A stretch of DNA of 64,000 nucleotides from Myxococcales bacterium (GTDB lineage Bacteria; Myxococcota; UBA727; VGSZ01): contig JAHFED010000006.1 of the NCBI GenBank assembly GCA_023248635.1, positions 1 through 64,000 of the forward strand. Reading direction: 5' to 3'. Positions 10,697 through 63,477 of this stretch are shown piece after piece. Made by a program: the position numbers and the translations under genes. A model generated the notes under the pieces. That model did not search any database. It was not told the origin of the DNA and was given only the letters and a program-made list of their open reading frames with translations. Within the stretch, counting starts at the first letter, position 1. Each line of letters starts with the position of its first letter.

Positions 10697-12214
10697 TCAA
10701 CGCGGCAGGTGCGCGAGCGCCTCCCACAACTTTTTGGAGAACTCTTCCCGCGGGACGACGACGTCGGGTTGCACGCCTTCCATCTCGTTGTCGCCGTTGG
10801 CGCGCAGCTCCAGGAAGTCGGGGATCTCGATCTGCCACCCACTGTGCGGCAGCACCACCGGGACGCCGCCTTCGCTGTAGCCGCCGCCGGCCCCCGCTGT
10901 GTGTTCGCCGACGATAGAGGCGGCTCCAGCATCTTGGAGCAGCGCCGAGAAATGGGCCGCCGCCGAAGCGGTGCCTCCGTCGACGATGACGGCGAGACGG
11001 CCTTCCCAAAGCGCGGGCGGAGACAGCGCGCTCTGCTCTTCAGCGCTCGGCGGCACGACGGCGAACTCCTCGTCACAGCTCGACAAGGCGGTGGCGCCCA
11101 AGAGCGTGCAGCCCGGGTCGCGGCCCCGCCACACCGCCGCGCGATCGCAGCGTTCTGCGGCTTCGGCGATCAGCCGTCCCATGCGGTCGAGCTGCGCCGT
11201 CGACTCCTGGGATTCCGGCAAGGTTCGCGTGAGCCAGCGGCGTTGCCTTTCAAAGCGGTGCTCCCAATGCGGGTGCTTGATGAAGCGCTTCCGTGCACAG
11301 GGCAGCGTCGTCGGCGTCGTCATCTGGGCGACGGTGTCTGCCCAGGTGTGGCCACCGGCGTTGCCACAGACATCGACGACCAGCATGTCGACCTGCTCCT
11401 CGCGGAGCTGTTCGATGCGGACGGTCACGGCCGCCAAGATGGCCCTCTCCACGTCGACATAGCGCAGGTCGTGCTGGCAGCTCTCGTCGCAATCGCCCGT
11501 CGACCCGCTTTGCCAGGACTCCCAGGCCTGCATGCAGGCGGAGACGTATGATTCCCGCATGAAGTCGGGGATGCGAAGCAGGCCCAGTCGCAGCCCGCTC
11601 GACGTCACCACCACGGCGGTCGGGAAGTCCAGGGCAACACCGTCAGCGTCGAGGCGTCGCGCACCAGGAGGCAGAGAAAAGCGAAAGCTGCTGTCGCCAG
11701 CGTGAAACCCGAGCTCCGCACAGGCTTTGGCGGCCTTGCTGTCTTTGCGGATGAGCGATGGCGCATCCACCCGCCACCGTTCCAGGTCGGTGACGGGCTT
11801 GTGGGCGGCATCGACCTCGGCGTCCCGCCCCTCCAGCCAACGTCCCACCCCCTGAAAGAACCTGGGGCGGACAATGCGGAAGTGGTCGTCGCCAAAACTC
11901 TCGACGAAGGCTTTGATCGCGTCTTCGGCATCTCCGTCGATGCGTGCGTCGTTGATGGCTGCGCGGGTCTCGTCGTGCAGTTTCTTCAGATCGAGGTGCC
12001 GGTGTTCCTGAACCCACTCGAGGTTGGGGTACACAGCGCTGGTGTGGCGCACGAGCAAGTCGAAGTCGTCGAGCCAGGCCTGATGATCGACGTCCTCGAC
12101 GCTCAACTTGACGAAGAAAGCGCTGATAGCGAGGACCAAGGCGACGACGTGAGCCACGACGACGACGCCGACGAGGGCGACGAGGGCCGCGACGATACGG
12201 CGCAGCGCTCTCAT
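10697..12214 (-). CDS. S41-family (C-terminal-processing-like) peptidase, membrane-anchored
   Basis: This 505-residue protein starts MRALRRIVAALVALVGVVVV, a basic N-terminus followed by a long hydrophobic anchor. The C-terminal half carries S41 peptidase features. There is a beta-sheet segment VDMLVVDVCGNAGGHTWADT, then VIVDGGTASAAAHFSALLQD with the expected nucleophile Ser at about residue 416, and EHTAGAGGGYSEGG. No PDZ domain is obvious. It probably degrades or processes exported proteins or peptides. The ATG overlaps the stop of coaBC (ATGA), which couples its translation to coenzyme A synthesis for no evident functional reason. The catalytic Lys was not assigned with confidence. Confidence 0.82.
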   Translation of the reverse strand: MRALRRIVAALVALVGVVVVAHVVALVLAISAFFVKLSVEDVDHQAWLDDFDLLVRHTSAVYPNLEWVQEHRHLDLKKLHDETRAAINDARIDGDAEDAIKAFVESFGDDHFRIVRPRFFQGVGRWLEGRDAEVDAAHKPVTDLERWRVDAPSLIRKDSKAAKACAELGFHAGDSSFRFSLPPGARRLDADGVALDFPTAVVVTSSGLRLGLLRIPDFMRESYVSACMQAWESWQSGSTGDCDESCQHDLRYVDVERAILAAVTVRIEQLREEQVDMLVVDVCGNAGGHTWADTVAQMTTPTTLPCARKRFIKHPHWEHRFERQRRWLTRTLPESQESTAQLDRMGRLIAEAAERCDRAAVWRGRDPGCTLLGATALSSCDEEFAVVPPSAEEQSALSPPALWEGRLAVIVDGGTASAAAHFSALLQDAGAASIVGEHTAGAGGGYSEGGVPVVLPHSGWQIEIPDFLELRANGDNEMEGVQPDVVVPREEFSKKLWEALAHLPR

Positions 12215-21220: not shown

Positions 21221-21439
21221 CTCATCCCGCGTCCGCTTGACGTTCGACCGCGTTCCGAGATGGGAAAGACGCGGGATGATGCGCGTGAAGCGCGCCCGCG
21301 GAACGCGGAGTTGGTGGGGGGCCCCGCGTCCGGCTCCGCCGGCGCGGGGGGAGGTCTGCAACAGACCTCCCAGAAGAGCATCCCCGACGGCGATGAACGA
21401 GACCGCTCCGCGGTCGAAGTTCAGCGAGATCGGGGCTCA
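21221..21439 (+). repeat. Dispersed structured repeat, copy B
   Basis: This 219-bp copy is nearly identical to those at 57948 and 61415. It runs from CTCATCCCGCGTCC to GCGAGATCGGGGCTCA, and its last three bases are the reverse complement of the TGA stop of the leftward PpiC-like gene. Inner inverted repeats include GGGAGGTCTG..CAGACCTCCC, GACCGC..GCGGTC, CCGCGTTCCG..CGGAACGCGG and CATCCCGCGTC..GACGCGGGATG. It is probably a non-coding element transcribed as the 3' end of the neighbouring mRNA. Confidence 0.88.
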
Positions 21440-22687
21440 GTGATTGGGGATGGTGCCAGCTGCGCCGCCGCCGCCGCCGTGGGGGCTCATCATGCCGGGC
21501 AAGGCATTTTTGCCGGTGGCTTTCCAGGACGGCACTTTGGAGCCCTTGTCTTGAGGATCAACCAGGGGCGAGGCCAGCGGCTCCACCACGCGTTCGATGA
21601 GCGCAGCCTGGCGCAAGCCGTCGGTGACGTCGTCGATCGTTTTCATGAAGGCCTTCACCTTCTCGCGTTCGGCGATGATGTCCTTCGCCTCTTTGGGCGG
21701 CAGTGCACGGCCTTTGGTCACGCCCCCACCGAGCACCACGTGGAAGCCGCGGTCGGTTTGCACGGGTCCGCCGACTTGTCCGGCCTTGAGCGTGAACGCC
21801 AGCGCCTCGAGCTCGGGAAAAACGTCGCCCCGCTTGAAGGTGCCGAGGTCGCCGCCGTTGGCGCTGGTGGCTGAGTCCTCGCTCTGCTCCCGCGCGATCT
21901 TGGCGAAGGCGGCAGCGTCTTTGCCGGCGACGAGGGCCTTGGCTGCTTCGGCTTGCTTCTTCTTTGTGCCCAAGACCTCGGCGCTCGCGCCGCGATCGAC
22001 CTTGAACAGGATTTGGGCGGCCTCGGCGGTGTCGGGGATGACGAACACCGCCTTGTTGTCGTCGTAGATCCGGTCGATGGCGGCGGGGGTGGGAGCAGGG
22101 ACGGCGGCTTCGATGTTCTTGAGCAGCTTGGCGATGGCGACGTCGACGCGGACGTCGGCTTCGAACCCGGTTCGGTTGGTGCCGAGGTGCTGCAACACGT
22201 CCTCGAGCTTTTTGTCTTTGGGGAGTGCGGCCACCATGTCGTCGGCGGCCTTTTTGGCTTCGTCGTCGCTGGGCCACAGCTTGCGCGCCTTGGCCTCTTT
22301 GACGAGGAGGGCGCGCTCGAGCATCTTCTCGTAGGCGGGCTGCTCGAAGGCCTCTTTCATCTCGGCCTCGAGCATTTCCGGGGGCACCCCCGCCAGCGAA
22401 GCAGCCTGGATCATGGTGCGGTCGAGATCGGTCTTGGTGAAGGTCTGGCCGTCGACCTTGAGGACCACGGCGGTGGGCTCGAGGCCGGCGATGCGGCTGC
22501 GGGTCATGCCCCCGTGGCTGCCATGGGGTGCGCCCATGCCGGGTCCGATGGGCTTGTCGCCAGCGCCCCCGAGGCTCCCGTGCTTGGCCGGGATCTTCTC
22601 GCCGCCCACGAGGAGGGGCTCTTTCGCCTTGTCGTCACCACACGCCACCGCCGCCAGCAACACAGAGATCAGGGCCCATCGCTTCAT
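21437..22687 (-). CDS. Lipoprotein peptidyl-prolyl isomerase (PpiC/SurA-like)
   Basis: This 416-residue predicted lipoprotein has lipobox LLAAVAC with Cys16. A Gly/His-rich linker follows (GMGAPHGSHGGMTRSR). A SurA-N-like helical domain (about 75-200) leads to a parvulin rotamase domain (about 210-325), seen in AQILFKVD, AKIAREQSEDSATSANGGDL, FKRGDVFPELEALAFTLKAG and DRGFHVVLGG. It likely helps fold outer-membrane or periplasmic proteins. A Gly/His-rich tail ends the protein. Its ATG overlaps the stop of the SixA-like gene, and its TGA is the first codon of repeat copy B read on this strand. Confidence 0.88.
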   Translation of the reverse strand: MKRWALISVLLAAVACGDDKAKEPLLVGGEKIPAKHGSLGGAGDKPIGPGMGAPHGSHGGMTRSRIAGLEPTAVVLKVDGQTFTKTDLDRTMIQAASLAGVPPEMLEAEMKEAFEQPAYEKMLERALLVKEAKARKLWPSDDEAKKAADDMVAALPKDKKLEDVLQHLGTNRTGFEADVRVDVAIAKLLKNIEAAVPAPTPAAIDRIYDDNKAVFVIPDTAEAAQILFKVDRGASAEVLGTKKKQAEAAKALVAGKDAAAFAKIAREQSEDSATSANGGDLGTFKRGDVFPELEALAFTLKAGQVGGPVQTDRGFHVVLGGGVTKGRALPPKEAKDIIAEREKVKAFMKTIDDVTDGLRQAALIERVVEPLASPLVDPQDKGSKVPSWKATGKNALPGMMSPHGGGGGAAGTIPNH

Positions 22688-47692: not shown

Positions 47693-49849
47693 ATGGAGGC
47701 GATGCCCAAGGAATGCGCCGTCGTCCTCTCTGCCGCTCTCGTCGCCGTCGCTGGGTCGCTGGGCTGTGTCGACTGGTCACTCCTGCCCGCCGCGGCCGAG
47801 GGTGAAGGCGAGGGGGAGGGCGAGGGTGAAGGTGAAGGCGGAGGGGAGCTCGATTGGCAGCCCATCGAATCGCCCGGCCTCAACACCGTCTTTTCCCTGT
47901 CGACGACGCGGGGTCGCATGTTTGCGGTCACCAATCAGGAGATCTTCGAGCGTTCGGGCACGACGTGGCAGAGCGTGCTGGCGGCCTCGTGCGGCAATGG
48001 CTTCCTCGGACCGGTGCATGTGTCCGACGGCGGCGACATCATCGTCGGTCTGGCCAACGGTGTCGGACGCGTTCGACGGGGCGCGAATCTCGGATCTTGT
48101 GAAGCCCTGATCATCGACGGTCAGGGTGCAGACACCAGTCCTCGCCGCAGCGTCGGCGTCGGCTGGGAGGGGTCTGCGGCCGGGCCCGGCGCCACGCTGG
48201 TGTGGGACGGCACCGACCTCGTGGTCTTCGACGTCAGCGGCGAAGCAGCGGACCGCCGCGTGGTCAGCACCACCTTGGTCAACGACAGCCCCCTGCGCGG
48301 CGGCACCTTCTTCTCCATCGCCGACGATGGGGCGACGCTGACCTTGAGCGATCGACGGGTCATCGGGCCGATCGACCCCGCCGACGGGCTCTCGGCTCTC
48401 CTCCTGGATGAAGATCCCGTGGCCGACGTCGTCGTCGGCGCCGGCGAAACGGCCTTGTTCAACCTCAGCTTCAGCAACAACGCCCGCGTGCTCGAGGTGG
48501 TCTGGACCAACGAAGCGAACCGTACCTTGCCCCTCTACGGCAATGACCTGGGGCAGTTCGACGCCGGCGATTTCTTCACCGCCTTCGCCGCCGACGTCGG
48601 GATCGCTCCGCGCGTGGCGGGCGTGGGTCCCTCGGGCTTGGTCGTGCGGGTCGGTCGCACGGGGGACATCGAGCTGCCCTCGGGGCCGCGCAACGGCTTT
48701 GCGACCCGCGTGATCCCTGGTGTGGACGGCGAGAGCTGGATGCTCGGTGACGAGGTCGTTTCCTTCTGGTCAGCGGCGTCGCTGGGGGCAGGGCTTGCGC
48801 CCGACAGCCGCGCCTCGCTCTCAATCGGCGGCCAGAGCGGCGGCGTCGCCGTGGGTGCGGGCGAGCTGGTGGTGCGCGATGACGCCGGCCAGCTGCGCCT
48901 GGTCGTTGATCTCGGCGCTGGCGAGCTTGCCATCCGCTCAGAGCCAACGGTTTCGAGTGCCGGCACCGGACCCCTGGGCGTGGGCGCGACGGTGGGGGGC
49001 GTGGTCACGGTGTATGACGTCGATCTCCTCACGGGCGGGCCCGTCGTCACCCGGCGCGTCCTCAATGCCGAACACTCGGCTTTCGGCGGCGGGGAATTCG
49101 TCGTCGTCGACGCGCTGTGCGCCAGCCCCACCTGCACCGTCGCCCACGACATCGATGGCCTTGAGCTGGTGTTTCTGGAGATCCTTTCCCAAGATCCAGT
49201 CACGACTCTCGGCTTGCGACGCTGCACCATCGCCGAGGAGCCCTTTGCGGTCACCTGTGACTCCCGCAGCACAGCCAGCGTCGCCGGCATCCCCCTCGTG
49301 AGTGCCGTCGATGCGTTCCGTGCCCAGGTCTCTTTGGTCGACACCAATCTCGCGTTGGCTTCCTTGCCCGGCGTCGTCGTGGTCGACGTCCGCGACGCGC
49401 CAACCAGAGCGATCGCGGTGGTCGGCGCCGACGGCGTCGCCGTGCCCACCGCGCTCAATGGCTGCCTCATCGTCCCCAGTCGTCTCGGCCGAAATCTCAC
49501 CCTGCTCGACATCGACGACATCAACGATCTGAACGCCCGACACTTCGGCAATTTCCCCATCAGCGACGTCATCGTCGCCGGCCCCCAGCTTTTGCTGGTC
49601 GGCGGCGGCAATCGTTTTGGCAACTTCGGCGCCGAGCAACTGGCGACCTTGCCCGCTCCCGATGATCCCTCGGCCCCCTGTCAGGTGGCTGGGGCCTTTG
49701 CGCCGCCCACGGAATTCCGGCCGCTCGGCCGCCTCCGGGCCCAGGGCGACATCGAAAGCGCCGCCTTCTTCGACGCCGACCCCGACGACGACGCCCCTTC
49801 CGAGCTCTACGTCGTCGACTTGGACGGTCAGATCTGGATCGTGCCCTGA
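47693..49849 (+). CDS. Large lipoprotein with Glu-Gly linker, unknown function
   Basis: This 718-residue predicted lipoprotein has signal MEAMPKECAVVLSAALVAVA and lipobox SLGC (Cys25). An acidic Glu-Gly linker follows at about 36-50. The rest is rich in beta strand, with repeated short hydrophobic stretches such as TLVWDGTDLVVFDV and VGVGATVGGVVTVYDVDLL, suggestive of a beta-propeller-like or repeat domain. A few Cys pairs are present (CASPTC, RRCTIAEEPFAVTC). No family was recognised. An ATG at 47702 is an alternative start. The TGA stop is the first codon of repeat copy C. It is divergent from the TSP3/CxxCH gene with a gap of about 110 bp. Confidence 0.8.
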   Translation: MEAMPKECAVVLSAALVAVAGSLGCVDWSLLPAAAEGEGEGEGEGEGEGGGELDWQPIESPGLNTVFSLSTTRGRMFAVTNQEIFERSGTTWQSVLAASCGNGFLGPVHVSDGGDIIVGLANGVGRVRRGANLGSCEALIIDGQGADTSPRRSVGVGWEGSAAGPGATLVWDGTDLVVFDVSGEAADRRVVSTTLVNDSPLRGGTFFSIADDGATLTLSDRRVIGPIDPADGLSALLLDEDPVADVVVGAGETALFNLSFSNNARVLEVVWTNEANRTLPLYGNDLGQFDAGDFFTAFAADVGIAPRVAGVGPSGLVVRVGRTGDIELPSGPRNGFATRVIPGVDGESWMLGDEVVSFWSAASLGAGLAPDSRASLSIGGQSGGVAVGAGELVVRDDAGQLRLVVDLGAGELAIRSEPTVSSAGTGPLGVGATVGGVVTVYDVDLLTGGPVVTRRVLNAEHSAFGGGEFVVVDALCASPTCTVAHDIDGLELVFLEILSQDPVTTLGLRRCTIAEEPFAVTCDSRSTASVAGIPLVSAVDAFRAQVSLVDTNLALASLPGVVVVDVRDAPTRAIAVVGADGVAVPTALNGCLIVPSRLGRNLTLLDIDDINDLNARHFGNFPISDVIVAGPQLLLVGGGNRFGNFGAEQLATLPAPDDPSAPCQVAGAFAPPTEFRPLGRLRAQGDIESAAFFDADPDDDAPSELYVVDLDGQIWIVP

Positions 49850-50065
49850 TCCGCGATCTCGCTGAACTTCGACCGCGGAGCGGTCTCGTTCATCTCCCTC
49901 GGGGATGCTCTTCTGGGAGGTCTGGTGCAGACCTCCCCCCGCGCCGGCAGAGCCGGACGCGGGGCCCCCCACCAACTCCGCGTTCCGCGGGCGCGCTTCA
50001 CGCGCACCATCCCGCATCTTTCCCATCTCGGAACGCGGTCGAACATCAAGCGGACGCGGGATGAG
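49847..50065 (-). repeat. Dispersed structured repeat, copy C (inverted relative to B, D and E)
   Basis: This 219-bp copy begins with the TGA of the rightward lipoprotein gene (TGATCCGCGATCTCGCTGAA) and runs to CGGACGCGGGATGAG. All main inverted repeats are kept: GACCGC..GCGGTC, GGGAGGTCTG..CAGACCTCCC and the CCCCGCG..CGCGGGG block. It separates two convergent genes, and the stop of the small gene at 50069 lies 4 bp beyond its far end. Confidence 0.88.
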
Positions 50066-50068
50066 ACC

Positions 50069-57170: not shown

Positions 57171-57782
57171 TCACCCGCTCAGCAATGAGGAGGACCCACA
57201 GCGCAACGGACGCGCGGCATCCGCCGAGCACTCGTCGACGACGTGGCAGATGCTGGCAGGCGAGACGCCGACGATGCGCCAGTCGTAGACCGGCAGATCG
57301 ACCACCAGCAGATCGGCATGCCCGGCATCGACACGGCGCAATCGGACGTCGACGGAGACTGCTTTTCCCCGACAGGACCCGCGCAGCTCGAGCAAGCCCG
57401 CGGTGCGAGCGGTCTGCAGCGAACCCACCGCGCGCTCGTCAGGGAACGCCCGCCAAGGACCGATCTGCAGCGAGTACCCGTGAGCGATGCCGTCGCTGAC
57501 CGAGGGGAAGAGGTCGGCGCGCCCGTCCCCTCCCACCACAGCAGCGGCGTCGTCAATCCATCCAACCGCTTCGACGTCGTCGTCAGCGACCAGGGCCTCG
57601 GGTGTGAGGTAGCGCGCGGCGCTTTGAGCATCGTGGTCCTGCAGGGCGACGCCGAGGCGCAACAAGCTGAATTCAGCGCTGTTGCGCAGGACGTAGGCGC
57701 CAGCGACGACGGCCTCCAAGCAGACGAGAGAGAGAATGACTCCGCACCACGGTGAACGTGGTGGTGAGCGGCGCAAGCTCAT
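57171..57782 (-). CDS. Membrane-anchored protein, DUF2939-like in layout
   Basis: This 203-residue protein has one N-terminal membrane helix (WCGVILSLVCLEAVVAGAYV). An outer domain follows whose start (SAEFSLLRLGVALQDHDAQS, then AARYLTPEALV) resembles DUF2939-type proteins. The rest is mixed alpha/beta with a Cys pair near the end (SICHVVDECSADAARPLRCG). The family link is by pattern only. It is convergent with the secreted gene at 56432 (55-bp gap). Confidence 0.6.
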   Translation of the reverse strand: MSLRRSPPRSPWCGVILSLVCLEAVVAGAYVLRNSAEFSLLRLGVALQDHDAQSAARYLTPEALVADDDVEAVGWIDDAAAVVGGDGRADLFPSVSDGIAHGYSLQIGPWRAFPDERAVGSLQTARTAGLLELRGSCRGKAVSVDVRLRRVDAGHADLLVVDLPVYDWRIVGVSPASICHVVDECSADAARPLRCGSSSLLSG

Positions 57783-57947
57783 GGTGTTTCCTTGTGATCG
57801 GCGGGGCTCACCGGGTCGAGAAAAACGAAGAGGGCGTCGACGACGTCAACGGGGACCAGCGCCGGCAGGCCGAACCTTGGCCAGAGCATCGGCATTCCCG
57901 ACCAGGAGCAGGCTGCAAGCCGCCCGTGATCGCAGCCAGTGCAAACT

Positions 57948-58163
57948 CTCATCCCGCATCCCCTTGATGTTCGACCGCGTTCCGAGCTGGGAAAGACGCG
58001 GGATGATGAGCGTGCAGCGCGCCCGCGGAACGCGGAGTTGGTGGGGGGCCCCGCGTCCGGCTCCGCCGGCGCGGGGGGAGGTCTGCATCAGACCTCCCAG
58101 AAGAGCATCCCCGACGGAGCTGAACGAGACCGCTCCGCGGTCGAAGTTCAGCGAGATCGGGGA

Positions 58164-58166
<3 letters not shown>
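57948..58166 (+). repeat. Dispersed structured repeat, copy D
   Basis: This 219-bp copy has the same orientation as B and E. It starts CTCATCCCGCATCCCCTTGA and ends GCGAGATCGGGGATCA, the last three bases being the stop codon of the leftward NtrC-family gene. All major inverted repeats are intact. The 57783-57947 stretch before it holds no recognisable gene. Confidence 0.9.
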
Positions 58167-59645
<1,479 letters not shown>

Positions 59646-59661
59646 CGAGCTGCCTCTGTGC

Positions 59662-59683
59662 GGAACCCGTCAGCGTGGGTTCC
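59662..59683. promoter_or_regulatory. Inverted repeat upstream of the NtrC-family gene
   Basis: GGAACCC (59662-59668) and GGGTTCC (59677-59683) are perfect arms around an 8-nt spacer, ending 17 nt before the regulator's start codon. It is suitable as an autoregulatory operator or an enhancer site for the divergent sigma-54 promoter about 330 bp away. The remaining ~400 bp of this gap contains no gene I can support. Confidence 0.4.
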
Positions 59684-60009
59684 CTCTTCTGGGTGGTTGC
59701 GCCCGCGCCGCGCCGCGGATGGAACGAGGATCCCGACATCGGTGGACGTCGCGGCAGTCGTTGGAGGGCCGTGCTGCTGCGCCATCGAGGTGCGCCCGGC
59801 ACTGCAACCGCGGTGCCTCAAAAAGAGCGCGTTGTGCCGTGGACGTCCGTGGGCGCACGTGGGGCAGATTTGTGCGCGACGGCAAGACTGACACAGGTCC
59901 GGGAGAGAGGGACGCCGTCGGCAACGGGTCCAGCCGCCGTCCTGCCTTCACTGCCCAGGGCCGCCAGCGTCGACGTCGTCGTCCGCCATCTCCTCCGGTG
60001 CAGGTGCTC

Positions 60010-60024
60010 TGGCACCCCCACTGC
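60010..60024 (+). promoter_or_regulatory. Sigma-54 (-24/-12) promoter candidate
   Basis: TGGCACCCCCACTGC matches the consensus TGGCAC-N5-TTGC with one change (C for the first T), correct GG-GC spacing, and A following. Transcription would start near 60036, giving a leader of about 58 nt before the ATG at 60094. A divergent NtrC-type activator gene is 365 bp away. Confidence 0.65.
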
Positions 60025-60059
60025 ACGCTGGGCCTGGGTGCCTGCTTGAAGTTTGGATG

Positions 60060-60083
60060 TTCAAGACGCTGGCGCGTCTTGAA
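60060..60083 (+). promoter_or_regulatory. Perfect 10-bp hairpin directly before the ribosome site
   Basis: TTCAAGACGC (60060-60069) and GCGTCTTGAA (60074-60083) pair perfectly around a 4-nt loop. The next bases are GGGAG (60084-60088), the ribosome site for the gene at 60094. In the leader RNA this stem abuts, but does not bury, the ribosome site. It could control translation, stabilise the mRNA or be a DNA operator. Confidence 0.6.
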
Positions 60084-60093
60084 GGGAGCGCAG

Positions 60094-60447
60094 ATGGTCG
60101 CCGCCACCCATGCCGAAGTCTTCGCGTTGCCCGACGCCATCGAACGTCTGGCCTTCGCCGCCGAACGCGCGGCTGCTGCGCGCATCGATCTGGCGGTCGC
60201 CACCGCCGCCGCCACAGCCAAGACGCTCGCCACCTCGGCAGTCGTCGTCAGCTTTGCCCTTCTCATCGGAGGTTTGGCCTGGCTGTGTCTGATGGCCGGT
60301 GCGCTCGTGGTCCTGGCGGAACGCACCAGCACCGGCGGAGCCTTGCTGCTCATCGGAGGCGTGCAAGCCGTGGTGGCGACGACGATGGTCCTCGCCACGC
60401 GGGGCACCTTGGCCGCGCCTCTTCCGGTGGTGGGGGCCCGTCGATGA
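60094..60447 (+). CDS. YqjE-like (phage-holin-superfamily) membrane protein
   Basis: This 117-residue protein has a helical cytoplasmic N-terminus (AIERLAFAAERAAAARIDLA) and two close membrane helices at about 45-70 and 80-105 (FALLIGGLAWLCLMAGALVV, ALLLIGGVQAVVATTMVLAT). The layout fits the YqjE / putative actinobacteriophage holin III superfamily, small inner-membrane proteins of unclear role. A good GGGAG ribosome site follows the leader hairpin. It is the first of three small membrane genes and lies under the sigma-54 promoter candidate. Confidence 0.65.
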   Translation: MVAATHAEVFALPDAIERLAFAAERAAAARIDLAVATAAATAKTLATSAVVVSFALLIGGLAWLCLMAGALVVLAERTSTGGALLLIGGVQAVVATTMVLATRGTLAAPLPVVGARR

Positions 60448-60541
60448 CGTCGTCGCGGGAGCGGGCTGCGGCCTTGAGCGCACCCGCAGGTCACCGGTCT
60501 CGTTCGAACATCGGTCCACTCACTTGGTTCGCGGAGTCCTC

Positions 60542-60787
60542 ATGCAACCCAGCGCCGGTGTTTCCTCGTCGACCGCCGATCCCGCCCTCGCGCTGCCAAC
60601 TCAGCCCCCAGCTGCTGGCGACCTGCCCCCCAGCGCGGCAGAACAGGCTGAGGATCCCTTGAGGGCTGCCGGCCTGCGCGCCGTCGACGATCGTGTGCGC
60701 AGTTTTGTCGCCGAGCGCCCTGCGGTGGCCCTGCTCGGAGCCGTCGCCGTGGGCTTCGTCGTCGGCCGCCTGCTGTCTCGCGTGTGA
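60542..60787 (+). CDS. YqjD/DUF883-like small membrane protein
   Basis: This 81-residue protein has a flexible Pro/Ala-rich N-terminus, a helix (AAGLRAVDDRVRSFVAERPA) and one C-terminal membrane helix with glycines ending LLGAVAVGFVVGRLLSRV. The RSFVAERP...GFVVGRLLSR ending resembles the C-terminal helix of YqjD/ElaB/DUF883 proteins, which bind ribosomes to the inner membrane in E. coli stationary phase. GGAG precedes the ATG. A 94-bp gap separates it from the previous gene. Confidence 0.6.
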   Translation: MQPSAGVSSSTADPALALPTQPPAAGDLPPSAAEQAEDPLRAAGLRAVDDRVRSFVAERPAVALLGAVAVGFVVGRLLSRV

Positions 60788-60816
60788 TCCGCCCTCCACC
60801 AAGCCTGGGAGCCTCG

Positions 60817-61227
60817 ATGTCCGAAACCCCCGCCCCCATCGTCGGCGCCGCACCTGTCGACGCTGCCGCCGACCCCAGCGACGAGTCGCTCCAAGCGTCC
60901 GCCCTCGCCGTCAAAGACGCCGTTGTAGTGCTGGGGTCGCAGCTGAACAACGCCGTTGCACTGGCGGAACGAAAGCTGCGCAAGGTCGCCGTCGAGCATC
61001 CCTATCTTCTGATGGGCGGCGGCATCGGCAGCGGCTTCGTCGTCGGCGGCGGACTGAGCGCCCCACTCACCCGGGCCCTGGTTCGCGGCGGGCTGCGCAC
61101 GGCGGGGCTCTTGTTGCTCGATGTCGCTCGCAAAGCGCTGATGCCCCCCGTCGAAGGTGCAGGCCCCCCGTCGACGTCGGCCGAACCTATGTCGGCGCAT
61201 CCCCCGCCCGCTGAGCCTGCGCTCTGA
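60817..61227 (+). CDS. Small membrane protein, third gene of the cluster
   Basis: This 136-residue protein has a helical amphipathic segment (AVKDAVVVLGSQLNNAVALA, ERKLRKVAVEHP) and Gly-rich membrane stretches (YLLMGGGIGSGFVVGGGLSA, then RTAGLLLLDVARKAL). A Pro/Ala-rich tail ends it. The VEHPYLLMGGGIGSGFVVGG region echoes the VAERPAVALLGAVAVGFVVG helix of the preceding gene, so the two are probably distant paralogues. The ATG at 60817 has GGGAG upstream; a GTG at 60784 overlaps the previous stop. Confidence 0.6.
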   Translation: MSETPAPIVGAAPVDAAADPSDESLQASALAVKDAVVVLGSQLNNAVALAERKLRKVAVEHPYLLMGGGIGSGFVVGGGLSAPLTRALVRGGLRTAGLLLLDVARKALMPPVEGAGPPSTSAEPMSAHPPPAEPAL

Positions 61228-61331
61228 TGGCACGCGAGGGGCACTCCAGGGGCATGCGAGGGGAGGCTGTGCATGCCTTCGGTAAAGGCTGACCCCGATC
61301 TGTCGATGAGAAAGAGCGGGCGGGTGATCCT

Positions 61332-61356
61332 CCCCTCTCCCGTTTCGGGAGAGGGG
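61332..61356. terminator. Perfect 11-bp GC-rich hairpin after the membrane cluster
   Basis: CCCCTCTCCCG (61332-61342) and CGGGAGAGGGG (61346-61356) pair perfectly around TTT. It lies about 105 bp past the third gene, with no T-run after it. The sequence, with the following GCTGGGGTGAGGGG, resembles an extragenic palindrome common in many proteobacterial genomes. It may act as a terminator or mRNA stabiliser. Confidence 0.55.
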
Positions 61357-61414
61357 CTGGGGTGAGGGGACCCTTCGAGGAGCACCAGCAAGATCAAGGA
61401 TTTCTGGTGAAAGC

Positions 61415-61629
61415 CTCGTCCCGCGTTCGCTCGATGTTCGACCGCGTTCCGAGACGGGAAAGACGCGGGATGATGCGCGTGAAGCGCGCCCGCGGAACGC
61501 GGAGTTGGTGGGGGGCCCCGCGTCCGGCTCCGCCGGCGCCGAGGTCTGCACCAGACCTCCCAGAAGAGCATCCCCGACGGCGATGAACGAGACCGCTCCG
61601 CGGTCGAAGTTCAGCGAGATCGGGGATCA
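61415..61629 (+). repeat. Dispersed structured repeat, copy E
   Basis: This 215-bp copy is a few bases shorter than B and D because the Gly-box GCGCGGGGGGAGG is cut to GCGCCGAGG, which removes part of one stem. It ends GCGAGATCGGGGATCA, whose last three bases are the stop codon of the leftward acyl-CoA dehydrogenase gene. Confidence 0.88.
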
Positions 61630-63477
61630 GAACGCTGCTTCAGAAACGTGCATGAGAGACAGGTCTCCGCCTTCGATAATTTTCTTGTGAAGCGCGATCT
61701 CTGGCAGCACTTCTTTGCAATAGAAGCGTACGGCTGCGATCTTGCCTTCGTAGAAGTCGCGGTCGGCGCCGGTGGCCTCGGGCAGTTTCTTGAGCGCCAC
61801 GGTGGCCTGCCGCACCAAGAGCCAGCCAATGACGACTTCGGCGAGGGAGAAGAGCACCCGGTTGGCGTGCAAACCCACGTGGTAGAGGGACTCGGTCATG
61901 CGCGGCATCATGACGCCGAAGATGCCCTGCACCTGCGCCGCCGCCTTGCCCAGGGCCTCGCGCTCGGCCTTCAAGGCGTCGCCGCCTTCGTTGCCGTCGG
62001 CGAGCTGCTGGACCTCGCCGAACAGGCTCATCATGGTCTCGCCGTTGTCGCGGGCGATCTTGCGGAAGATCAGATCGAGGGCCTGAATGTGGGTCGTACC
62101 CTCGTAGAGCGTGTCGATCTTCTGGTCACGAATGTACTGCTCGATCGGGAAGTCTTGCGTATAGCCGGCGCCGCCGAAGACCTGCAGTGCAGAGTTGAGT
62201 AATTGGTAGCCCTTCTCTGAATTGTATCCCTTGATGAGGGGCAGCAGGAAGTCGTTGCGGCGCTCGAGGGCCTTTTTGACGTCGTCGTCGTTGCCGTGGC
62301 CGTGGCCTCCCTTGAGCTCGACACTGTCTTGGATGGAGGCGCCGTAGAGCACGAGGGCGCGCATCCCCTCGGCCAGGGCCTTCTGCAACATCAGCATGCG
62401 GCGCACATCGGGGTGCTGGATGATGCGAACCCGCGGCGACGTCTTGTCCATGATGCGCAGCATGTCGCCGCCCTGGACCCGATCTTTGGCGTAGGCCAGC
62501 GCATTCAAATAAGCCGTCGACACCGTGGCCATCGACTTCACGCCGATGAACATGCGGGCCTGCTCGATGACGCGGAACATCTGGGCGATGCCGTCGTGCA
62601 CGTTGCCGACGAGAAAGCCCCGCGCGGGCGTCTCGCCGCCGAAGTCCATCACGCAGGTCGCCGACGCCTTGATGCCCATCTTGTGCTCGATGGAGGTCGT
62701 GTAGACGCCGTTGCGCTCGCCGAGGCTGCCATCTTCGTTGACCCAGAACTTGGGCACGATGAAGAGGGACAAGCCCTTGGTGCCGGGCCGCGCCGGAGCG
62801 CCGTCTACGCCTTCGGGGCGGGCCAGCACGAGGTGGATGATGTTGGCGGCGGAGTCGAAGTCGCCGTTGGTGATCCAGCACTTGGTGCCGGTGAGCTCCC
62901 AAATGTCGTCTTTGACGTGCTTGGCCTTGCAGCGGGCTTCGCCGACGTCGGAGCCGGCTTGGGGCTCGCTGAGCTGCATGGTGCCGCCCCACTGCTTGTC
63001 GAGCGTGTTCTGCGCGAAGCGCTTCTTCTGCTCGGGCGTGGCGATGGCGTTGATGACGCGGGCGATGAAGGTGCCGAAGCCGTAAAAGGCCACCGAGGGG
63101 TTGGCGCCCGAGGTCATTTCGTTGATGGCCCAACACACCGTTGGGGGAGCGCCGACGCCGCCCAGGTGCTCGGGGCACTCGAGCATGTGCCAGCCGCCGT
63201 CGAACCAGGCCTTGAGGGACTTCTTCACGCCCTCGGGCAAGGTCACCTTGCCGGTTTTTTCATCGAACTTCAGCGGGACGCGGTCGCCTTCGACGAAGCT
63301 GGCGGCGAGCTCGTTGCTGGCCAGCTTCTCGAGCTGCACGATGCTGTCGCGCACGGTCTCTTCGTCGAGATGGGCAAAGGGCCCCTGCCCCAGCACGTTG
63401 CGGCCGATGTCGAGCACCTCAAAGAGGTTGAAGAAGGTGTCTCTGAGGTTGCTCTTGTAGTGGAAGTTGCTCGCCAT
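61627..63477 (-). CDS. Acyl-CoA dehydrogenase, large (extended) type
   Basis: This 616-residue flavoprotein oxidises acyl-CoA at the alpha-beta bond. The substrate/FAD core shows MQLSEPQAGSDVGEARCKA, KCWITNGDFDSAANIIHLVL, GYTQDFPIEQYIRDQKIDTL and YEGTTHIQALDLIFRKIARD, with the catalytic base Glu in YEGT near residue 458. It is about 200 residues longer than standard family members. The extra C-terminal helical domain (FSLAEVVIGWLLVRQATVAL) fits the extended AcdA/DmdC-like group. Its stop lies in repeat copy E. It is divergent from the Kazal-like lipoprotein gene. Confidence 0.95.
   Translation of the reverse strand: MASNFHYKSNLRDTFFNLFEVLDIGRNVLGQGPFAHLDEETVRDSIVQLEKLASNELAASFVEGDRVPLKFDEKTGKVTLPEGVKKSLKAWFDGGWHMLECPEHLGGVGAPPTVCWAINEMTSGANPSVAFYGFGTFIARVINAIATPEQKKRFAQNTLDKQWGGTMQLSEPQAGSDVGEARCKAKHVKDDIWELTGTKCWITNGDFDSAANIIHLVLARPEGVDGAPARPGTKGLSLFIVPKFWVNEDGSLGERNGVYTTSIEHKMGIKASATCVMDFGGETPARGFLVGNVHDGIAQMFRVIEQARMFIGVKSMATVSTAYLNALAYAKDRVQGGDMLRIMDKTSPRVRIIQHPDVRRMLMLQKALAEGMRALVLYGASIQDSVELKGGHGHGNDDDVKKALERRNDFLLPLIKGYNSEKGYQLLNSALQVFGGAGYTQDFPIEQYIRDQKIDTLYEGTTHIQALDLIFRKIARDNGETMMSLFGEVQQLADGNEGGDALKAEREALGKAAAQVQGIFGVMMPRMTESLYHVGLHANRVLFSLAEVVIGWLLVRQATVALKKLPEATGADRDFYEGKIAAVRFYCKEVLPEIALHKKIIEGGDLSLMHVSEAAF

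Follow-up and report, generated by a model that had tools for sequence, protein, structure and literature searches.

A divergent locus with predicted sigma-54 control pairs an NtrC-class regulator with YqjE- and DUF883-like small membrane-protein genes in a Myxococcales bacterium

In E. coli, small YqjE- and DUF883-like membrane proteins are encoded together in the yqjCDEK operon, in which yqjC and yqjD have sigma-S promoters and are subject to CsrA control, YqjD binds ribosomes and overexpression of YqjE leads to growth arrest (PMC10746276). In P. aeruginosa, PA3040-3042 encode a YqjD-like, a YqjE-like and a third small protein, and they are induced by envelope stress under the control of the ECF sigma factor AlgU (PMC11302039). 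In both organisms YqjD/YqjE couple growth arrest to stationary phase and envelope stress via general stress sigma factors (PMC10746276, PMC11302039). A related cluster is found across the phylum Myxococcota, with the order YqjE-like, DUF883-like, DUF883-like, glycine-rich and YtxH-like; the loci that we read had no upstream -24/-12 site and no neighbouring NtrC-class gene.

We analysed a stretch of 64,000 nucleotides (hereafter, the window) that forms part of contig C98 of a Myxococcales assembly (6.5 Mb, 135 contigs); genomes of 9-13 Mb occur in this phylum, with dozens of NtrC-class regulators. A regulator gene on the minus strand lies divergent from three ORFs for small membrane proteins on the plus strand, across a 448-bp intergenic region (Table 1). 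The three ORFs had been listed by a first-pass annotation of this DNA and are indeed present. Their grouping resembles the E. coli operon, but the window has a sigma-54-type promoter and its third gene is unrelated to that operon by any match. The predicted wiring differs from that of E. coli, as the annotation had proposed, with a sigma-54-type promoter and an NtrC-class regulator here against sigma-S there. Similarly, the three-gene composition resembles PA3040-3042, whereas the latter is under AlgU. The order of the Myxococcota cluster is the same as in the window, and its second and third proteins are homologous to those found here, but the YtxH-like gene and one of the DUF883-like genes are missing from the window. 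Both are kept on contig C40, where the assembly carries the locus a second time. All the parts are of known kinds, and the novelty lies in their combination. Our literature search found no paper on sigma-54 control of YqjE/YqjD-type genes, which does not prove that there is none.

Table 1. Position, strand and supporting evidence of the features of the divergent locus and its flanks (window coordinates).
Feature	Position	Strand	Evidence
220-nt dispersed repeat, 5-nt overlap with 3' end of regulator gene	57943-58168	+	
NtrC-class response regulator, 493 aa	58164-59645	-	Pfam domains, invariant residues
Putative -24/-12 promoter AGGCACCGCGGTTGCA, regulator-facing	59803-59818	-	Best score in window; counterpart in C40
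Tentative enhancer TGGGGCA-N22-TGACACA, right half degenerate	59860-59895		Counterparts in C40 and C31
-24/-12 promoter TGGCACCCCCACTGCA of membrane-gene cluster, predicted start ~60035	60010-60025	+	Motif, weighted score, conservation
Perfect 10-bp-stem hairpin in cluster leader	60060-60083		Folding; 226 genomic copies
YqjE-like (Phage_holin_3_6-like) membrane protein, two hydrophobic segments	60094-60447	+	Sub-cut-off Pfam match; 85% identical in C40
DUF883_C-like protein, C-tail-anchored, 81 aa	60542-60787	+	Profile match to myxobacterial family, prob 98.6%
Glycine-rich (glycine-zipper-like) membrane-associated protein, family across Myxococcota	60817-61227	+	Profile match prob 97.6%
220-nt dispersed repeat, second copy, far side of cluster	61410-61631	+	

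The first protein of the cluster matched Phage_holin_3_6 (YqjE) below the cut-off (E=4.5e-4; 20.7 bits against a gathering score of 28.4) and showed a weak match to myxobacterial YqjE in profile comparison (E 0.004, prob 8.5%), while among 195 genomes of the phylum its gene had no match outside its own assembly. The name YqjE-like is weakly held, from the weak match, the two membrane segments and the gene order. The second protein was also below the cut-off for DUF883_C (E=0.016; 15.3 bits against a gathering score of 27) and matched the myxobacterial DUF883-like tail-anchored family in profile comparison (E 8e-16). The third had no Pfam match and was assigned to a glycine-rich membrane family of myxobacteria (E 4e-12). 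No match was found for the small proteins in PHROGs. The YqjE/YqjD-like labels of the first-pass annotation therefore apply, weakly, to the first two genes as YqjE/DUF883-like and do not extend to the third.

The same annotation had placed a correctly spaced -24/-12 element, TGGCACCCCCACTGC, on the plus strand at 60010-60024, and this was borne out. One base further, TGGCACCCCCACTGCA (60010-60025) has a single mismatch to TGGCAC-N5-TTGCW, outside the GG and GC pairs (the -12 box begins with C instead of T), and GG at 60011-60012 and GC at 60022-60023 satisfy the required spacing. The element lies 84 nt before the ATG at 60094. Loose motif matches (two mismatches or fewer) numbered 20 in the window against 24.5 expected and so showed no enrichment, which means that a bare consensus match would prove little; for this reason we adopted weighted scoring, with an approximate matrix written from the general sigma-54 consensus and applied to all positions on both strands of the 64 kb. 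The two top scores, 14.9 at 59803-59818 (minus strand) and 14.5 at 60010-60025 (plus strand), both fell in the one intergenic region, facing outward. Just 1% of shuffled versions of this region gave a score above 13.8, and the chance that both best sites fall within the 448 bp is about 5e-5, orientation not counted. An RpoN gene is present in the genome. The element at 60010-60025 is well formed, beyond chance, and sigma-54 very probably drives the membrane-gene cluster from it.

The minus-strand site, AGGCACCGCGGTTGCA at 59818-59803, is directed toward the regulator gene, from which it is separated by a leader of about 147 nt, and was absent from the first-pass annotation. Its counterpart on C40 reads AGGCATTGCGGTTGCA. 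We lean towards autoregulation of the regulator through this site.

The second copy of the locus, on C40, is 83-87% identical at the nucleotide level. Amino acid identities with the window are 95% for the regulator, 85% for the YqjE-like protein, 68% for the tail-anchored protein and 74% for the third protein, and the extra DUF883-like gene of C40 (L039 9850-10194) has a weak DUF883_C match. The divergent arrangement of regulator and cluster is kept on C40 while the remaining surroundings have changed, and both -24/-12 sites are retained. In the intergenic DNA, about 195 bp beside the regulator are well conserved and the next 170 bp are 51% identical. After these comes a conserved island at 60002-60029, AGGTGCnCTGGCACCyCCACTGCACGnT, identical at 25 of 28 positions (binomial P 1.8e-5). 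Beside the C40 locus, ORFs resembling an integrase and an excisionase/primase (L039 712-5998) probably mark an integrated element.

Could C40 be a second copy in the same cell, whose conservation reflects a recent duplication within the genome? The two copies do lie in one assembly and their regulators share 95% of their amino acids, but C40 also carries nusG-rplK-rplA, usually single-copy, which is found again on C36 (~91% nucleotide identity; rplA 98% at the amino acid level), rplA being single in the relatives G001-G003, and the assembly has a stated contamination of 2.9%. From the duplicated genes and this contamination, C40 is most likely derived from a close relative, probably a contig binned in from another strain or species closely related to this one, and we consider duplication improbable. 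On both views the promoter has been preserved next to intergenic DNA that is now 51% identical, and C40 serves as a diverged copy for the promoter test, contaminant or not.

The first-pass annotation had made its reading depend on conservation of the promoter upstream of orthologues. This stood in C40, the sole close homologue available, and failed in distant myxobacterial clusters, where no upstream -24/-12 site scored above shuffles. The conservation evidence comes from that one homologue, probably a related strain. Searches of GTDB contigs with the YqjE-like and regulator alignments returned no close orthologues, and two congeneric genomes had no close regulator (best identity 46-47%). Since the distant clusters lack the promoter and the congeneric genomes a close regulator, sigma-54 control does not look ancestral; the wiring looks lineage-specific, as a local rewiring would.

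Exact matches to TGGCACN5YTGCW numbered 19 in the 6.5-Mb assembly, against 60 for a reversed-pattern control. One of these, TGGCACTCCCACTGCA (C31:7904-7919), is 63 nt upstream of a BON-domain gene with a GTG start codon (L103 7967-8632; PF04972, E 7e-16). A protein search with this gene returned a single further relative from the assembly (C55, E 2e-21), which also has an exact site, TGGCACATGCACTGCT (C55:64590-64605, L122), about 85 nt before its ATG. The chance of an exact site within 100 nt upstream of one given gene is about 1.5e-4. In other bacteria, both BON-domain and YqjE/DUF883 proteins are associated with the envelope or with stress, and the sites before the two BON genes, which the first-pass annotation had not reported, suggest an envelope-stress regulon. 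A separate site, TGGCACCCACATTGCT (C59:47322-47337, L123), is located about 60 nt before the gene of a 407-aa secreted or outer-membrane-like protein and is likely another sigma-54 promoter.

A candidate enhancer was found by comparing these regions. C40 has a perfect TGGGGCA-N22-TGTCCCA at the position equivalent to 59860-59895 of the window, and C31 has an N11 version, so that the inverted repeat has half-sites TGGG(G/A)CA...TG(T/C)CCCA with spacings of 11 bp (C31) and 22 bp (C40, one helical turn more). The dyad is 85 nt upstream of the -24 box on C31 and 159 nt upstream on C40. The window has an intact left half (59860-59866) and a degenerate right half. A shared dyad appeared in 2% of shuffle trials (P 0.02) for a motif that was derived post hoc. 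The dyad was not found at C55. Scanning the whole genome for exact and one-mismatch dyads brought up no other convincing target, as the remaining hits lay in coding DNA or had no well-placed promoter. We treat 59860-59895 as a tentative enhancer.

The regulator combines, over Pfam cut-offs, Response_reg (1e-21), Sigma54_activat (7e-71; the sigma-54 AAA+ middle domain) and HTH_8 (3e-11; a Fis-type HTH). The receiver Asp86, the acidic pair at 44-45 and Lys136 are invariant across three regulator copies, and the Walker motif reads GETGTGKE. Receiver, sigma-54 AAA+ domain, HTH_8, phosphoacceptor Asp and Walker motifs, which define the NtrC class, are all present. It shares the three-domain architecture of the NtrC/ZraR/AtoC class and aligns with it over its full length, but it differs in having no adjacent full sensor kinase, a 36-residue N-terminal extension and a GSFTDA loop. 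This loop, reported by the first-pass annotation, occupies residues 250-255 and is a variant of GAFTGA: among 22 loops in related loci we counted GAFTGA in 13, GAFTDA in 4, GSFTGA in 2, GSFTDA in 2 and GSFTNA in 1. GAFTDA and GSFTGA are listed among variants that retain activity in Desulfovibrio (PMC4641369); the A/S and G/D changes thus occur in homologues, and singly in functional variants. None of the named NCBIfam equivalogs listed matched the protein above its cut-off, so we assign it to the NtrC class and not to a named member.

With good confidence we take this neighbouring regulator to be the activator of the cluster. The assembly holds at least 54 regulator-like matches and the enhancer assignment is weak, so one could suppose that the promoter is sigma-54 dependent yet served by another of some 50 NtrC-class proteins, with the neighbour controlling mainly itself or other genes; we judge this unlikely, because C40 retains the divergent neighbourhood amid otherwise altered surroundings, and two outward-facing sites share one region. 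Less likely still is a chance resemblance in a cluster that uses a housekeeping or ECF promoter, as in distant myxobacteria, E. coli and Pseudomonas: the unenriched loose matches, the distant clusters without the motif and the sigma-S or AlgU control of relatives elsewhere would fit it, but not the location of the top two sites of 64 kb in one region, the conserved promoter island in diverged DNA or the exact sites before both BON genes.

The first-pass annotation was correct that no kinase adjoins the regulator; a likely partner is encoded on a different contig, though as a kinase it looks degenerate. C40 has a second regulator copy (84% at the amino acid level), whose end is overlapped by a gene encoding a kinase-like protein of 213 aa. 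On C36, which belongs to the main genome, the kinase-like gene survives with just about the last 25 codons of the second regulator copy, and a 220-nt repeat lies at the breakpoint where that copy was lost (L102 ~10771-11019). Regulators of about 50% identity elsewhere adjoin membrane-type sensor-kinase-like genes (L041, L042 and L043; read from ORFs, no domain search). The window regulator may look orphan because the regulator-kinase unit was broken up.

The C36 protein is the likeliest partner. It matched HisKA below the cut-off (E 2e-4), with ZraS as its best solved-structure match, and had no HATPase match; in the alignment to ZraS, the N-box Asn and DxGxG were absent. From these absences, it may be a phosphotransferase or phosphatase like PhyT, Spo0B and ChpT rather than a kinase. 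The latter are degenerate-kinase phosphotransferases (PMC5898713), and the C36 and C40 proteins likewise appear to combine a phosphoacceptor His region with an ATPase part that has decayed. They differ in being related to the HisKA/ZraS type and in their putative pairing with a sigma-54 activator, whereas PhyT, Spo0B and ChpT pair with PhyR, Spo0A or CtrA. That the C36 protein is the partner and that the BON genes belong to a shared regulon are two proposals, each of which we hold as evenly balanced.

The motif, its position and conservation, the protein domains and the synteny can be read directly from the sequence, and from them we infer binding, phosphotransfer, regulation and a stress signal as follows. 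The regulator would be phosphorylated on Asp86, with the phosphate probably arriving via the unlinked degenerate histidine kinase or phosphotransferase of C36. It would then bind the enhancer between the two transcription units, and its AAA+ domain would open RNA polymerase-sigma-54 at 60010-60025, switching on the YqjE-like/DUF883-like/glycine-rich cluster; it would probably also raise its own expression via 59818-59803. On balance we find it likely that the locus is such a divergent control unit, in which the phosphorylated regulator and RpoN turn on the cluster and probably the regulator too. Given the same promoter type before two BON-domain genes, the output would most likely be an envelope or stationary-phase stress response, which is also our best guess for the physiological signal. 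A role in development, suggested by the first-pass annotation, found nothing in its support, and envelope or stationary-phase stress fits better. The locus probably represents a rewiring of genes that E. coli and Pseudomonas place under other stress sigma factors. A broader version, in which the whole stress set (the cluster and both BON genes) is under sigma-54 and one regulator fed by an unlinked pseudokinase phosphotransferase in replacement of sigma-S/ECF control, appears doubtful. If the sigma-54 and response-regulator version is true, it would show that a dedicated signal switch can control the same output. Comparing C98, C36 and C40 would also offer a worked case of a kinase-like partner parted from its regulator beside dispersed repeats, explaining the orphan regulator.

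The dispersed repeat of about 220 nt is highly structured (RNA fold z -5) and conserved at ~95% identity, with 40 full-length copies scored and 287 candidates; further copies in the window lie at 21221-21440 and 49846-50066. An Rfam search of 57500-61800 gave no match. Finally, the palindrome TTCAAGACGC-N4-GCGTCTTGAA occurs in 226 exact copies in the assembly, against 0 for the control, often in tandem at 33-34 nt. The copy at 60060-60083 of the window sits immediately upstream of the Shine-Dalgarno of the YqjE-like gene, in a 33-nt insertion that C40 lacks. Another copy is located at L102 6819-6842.
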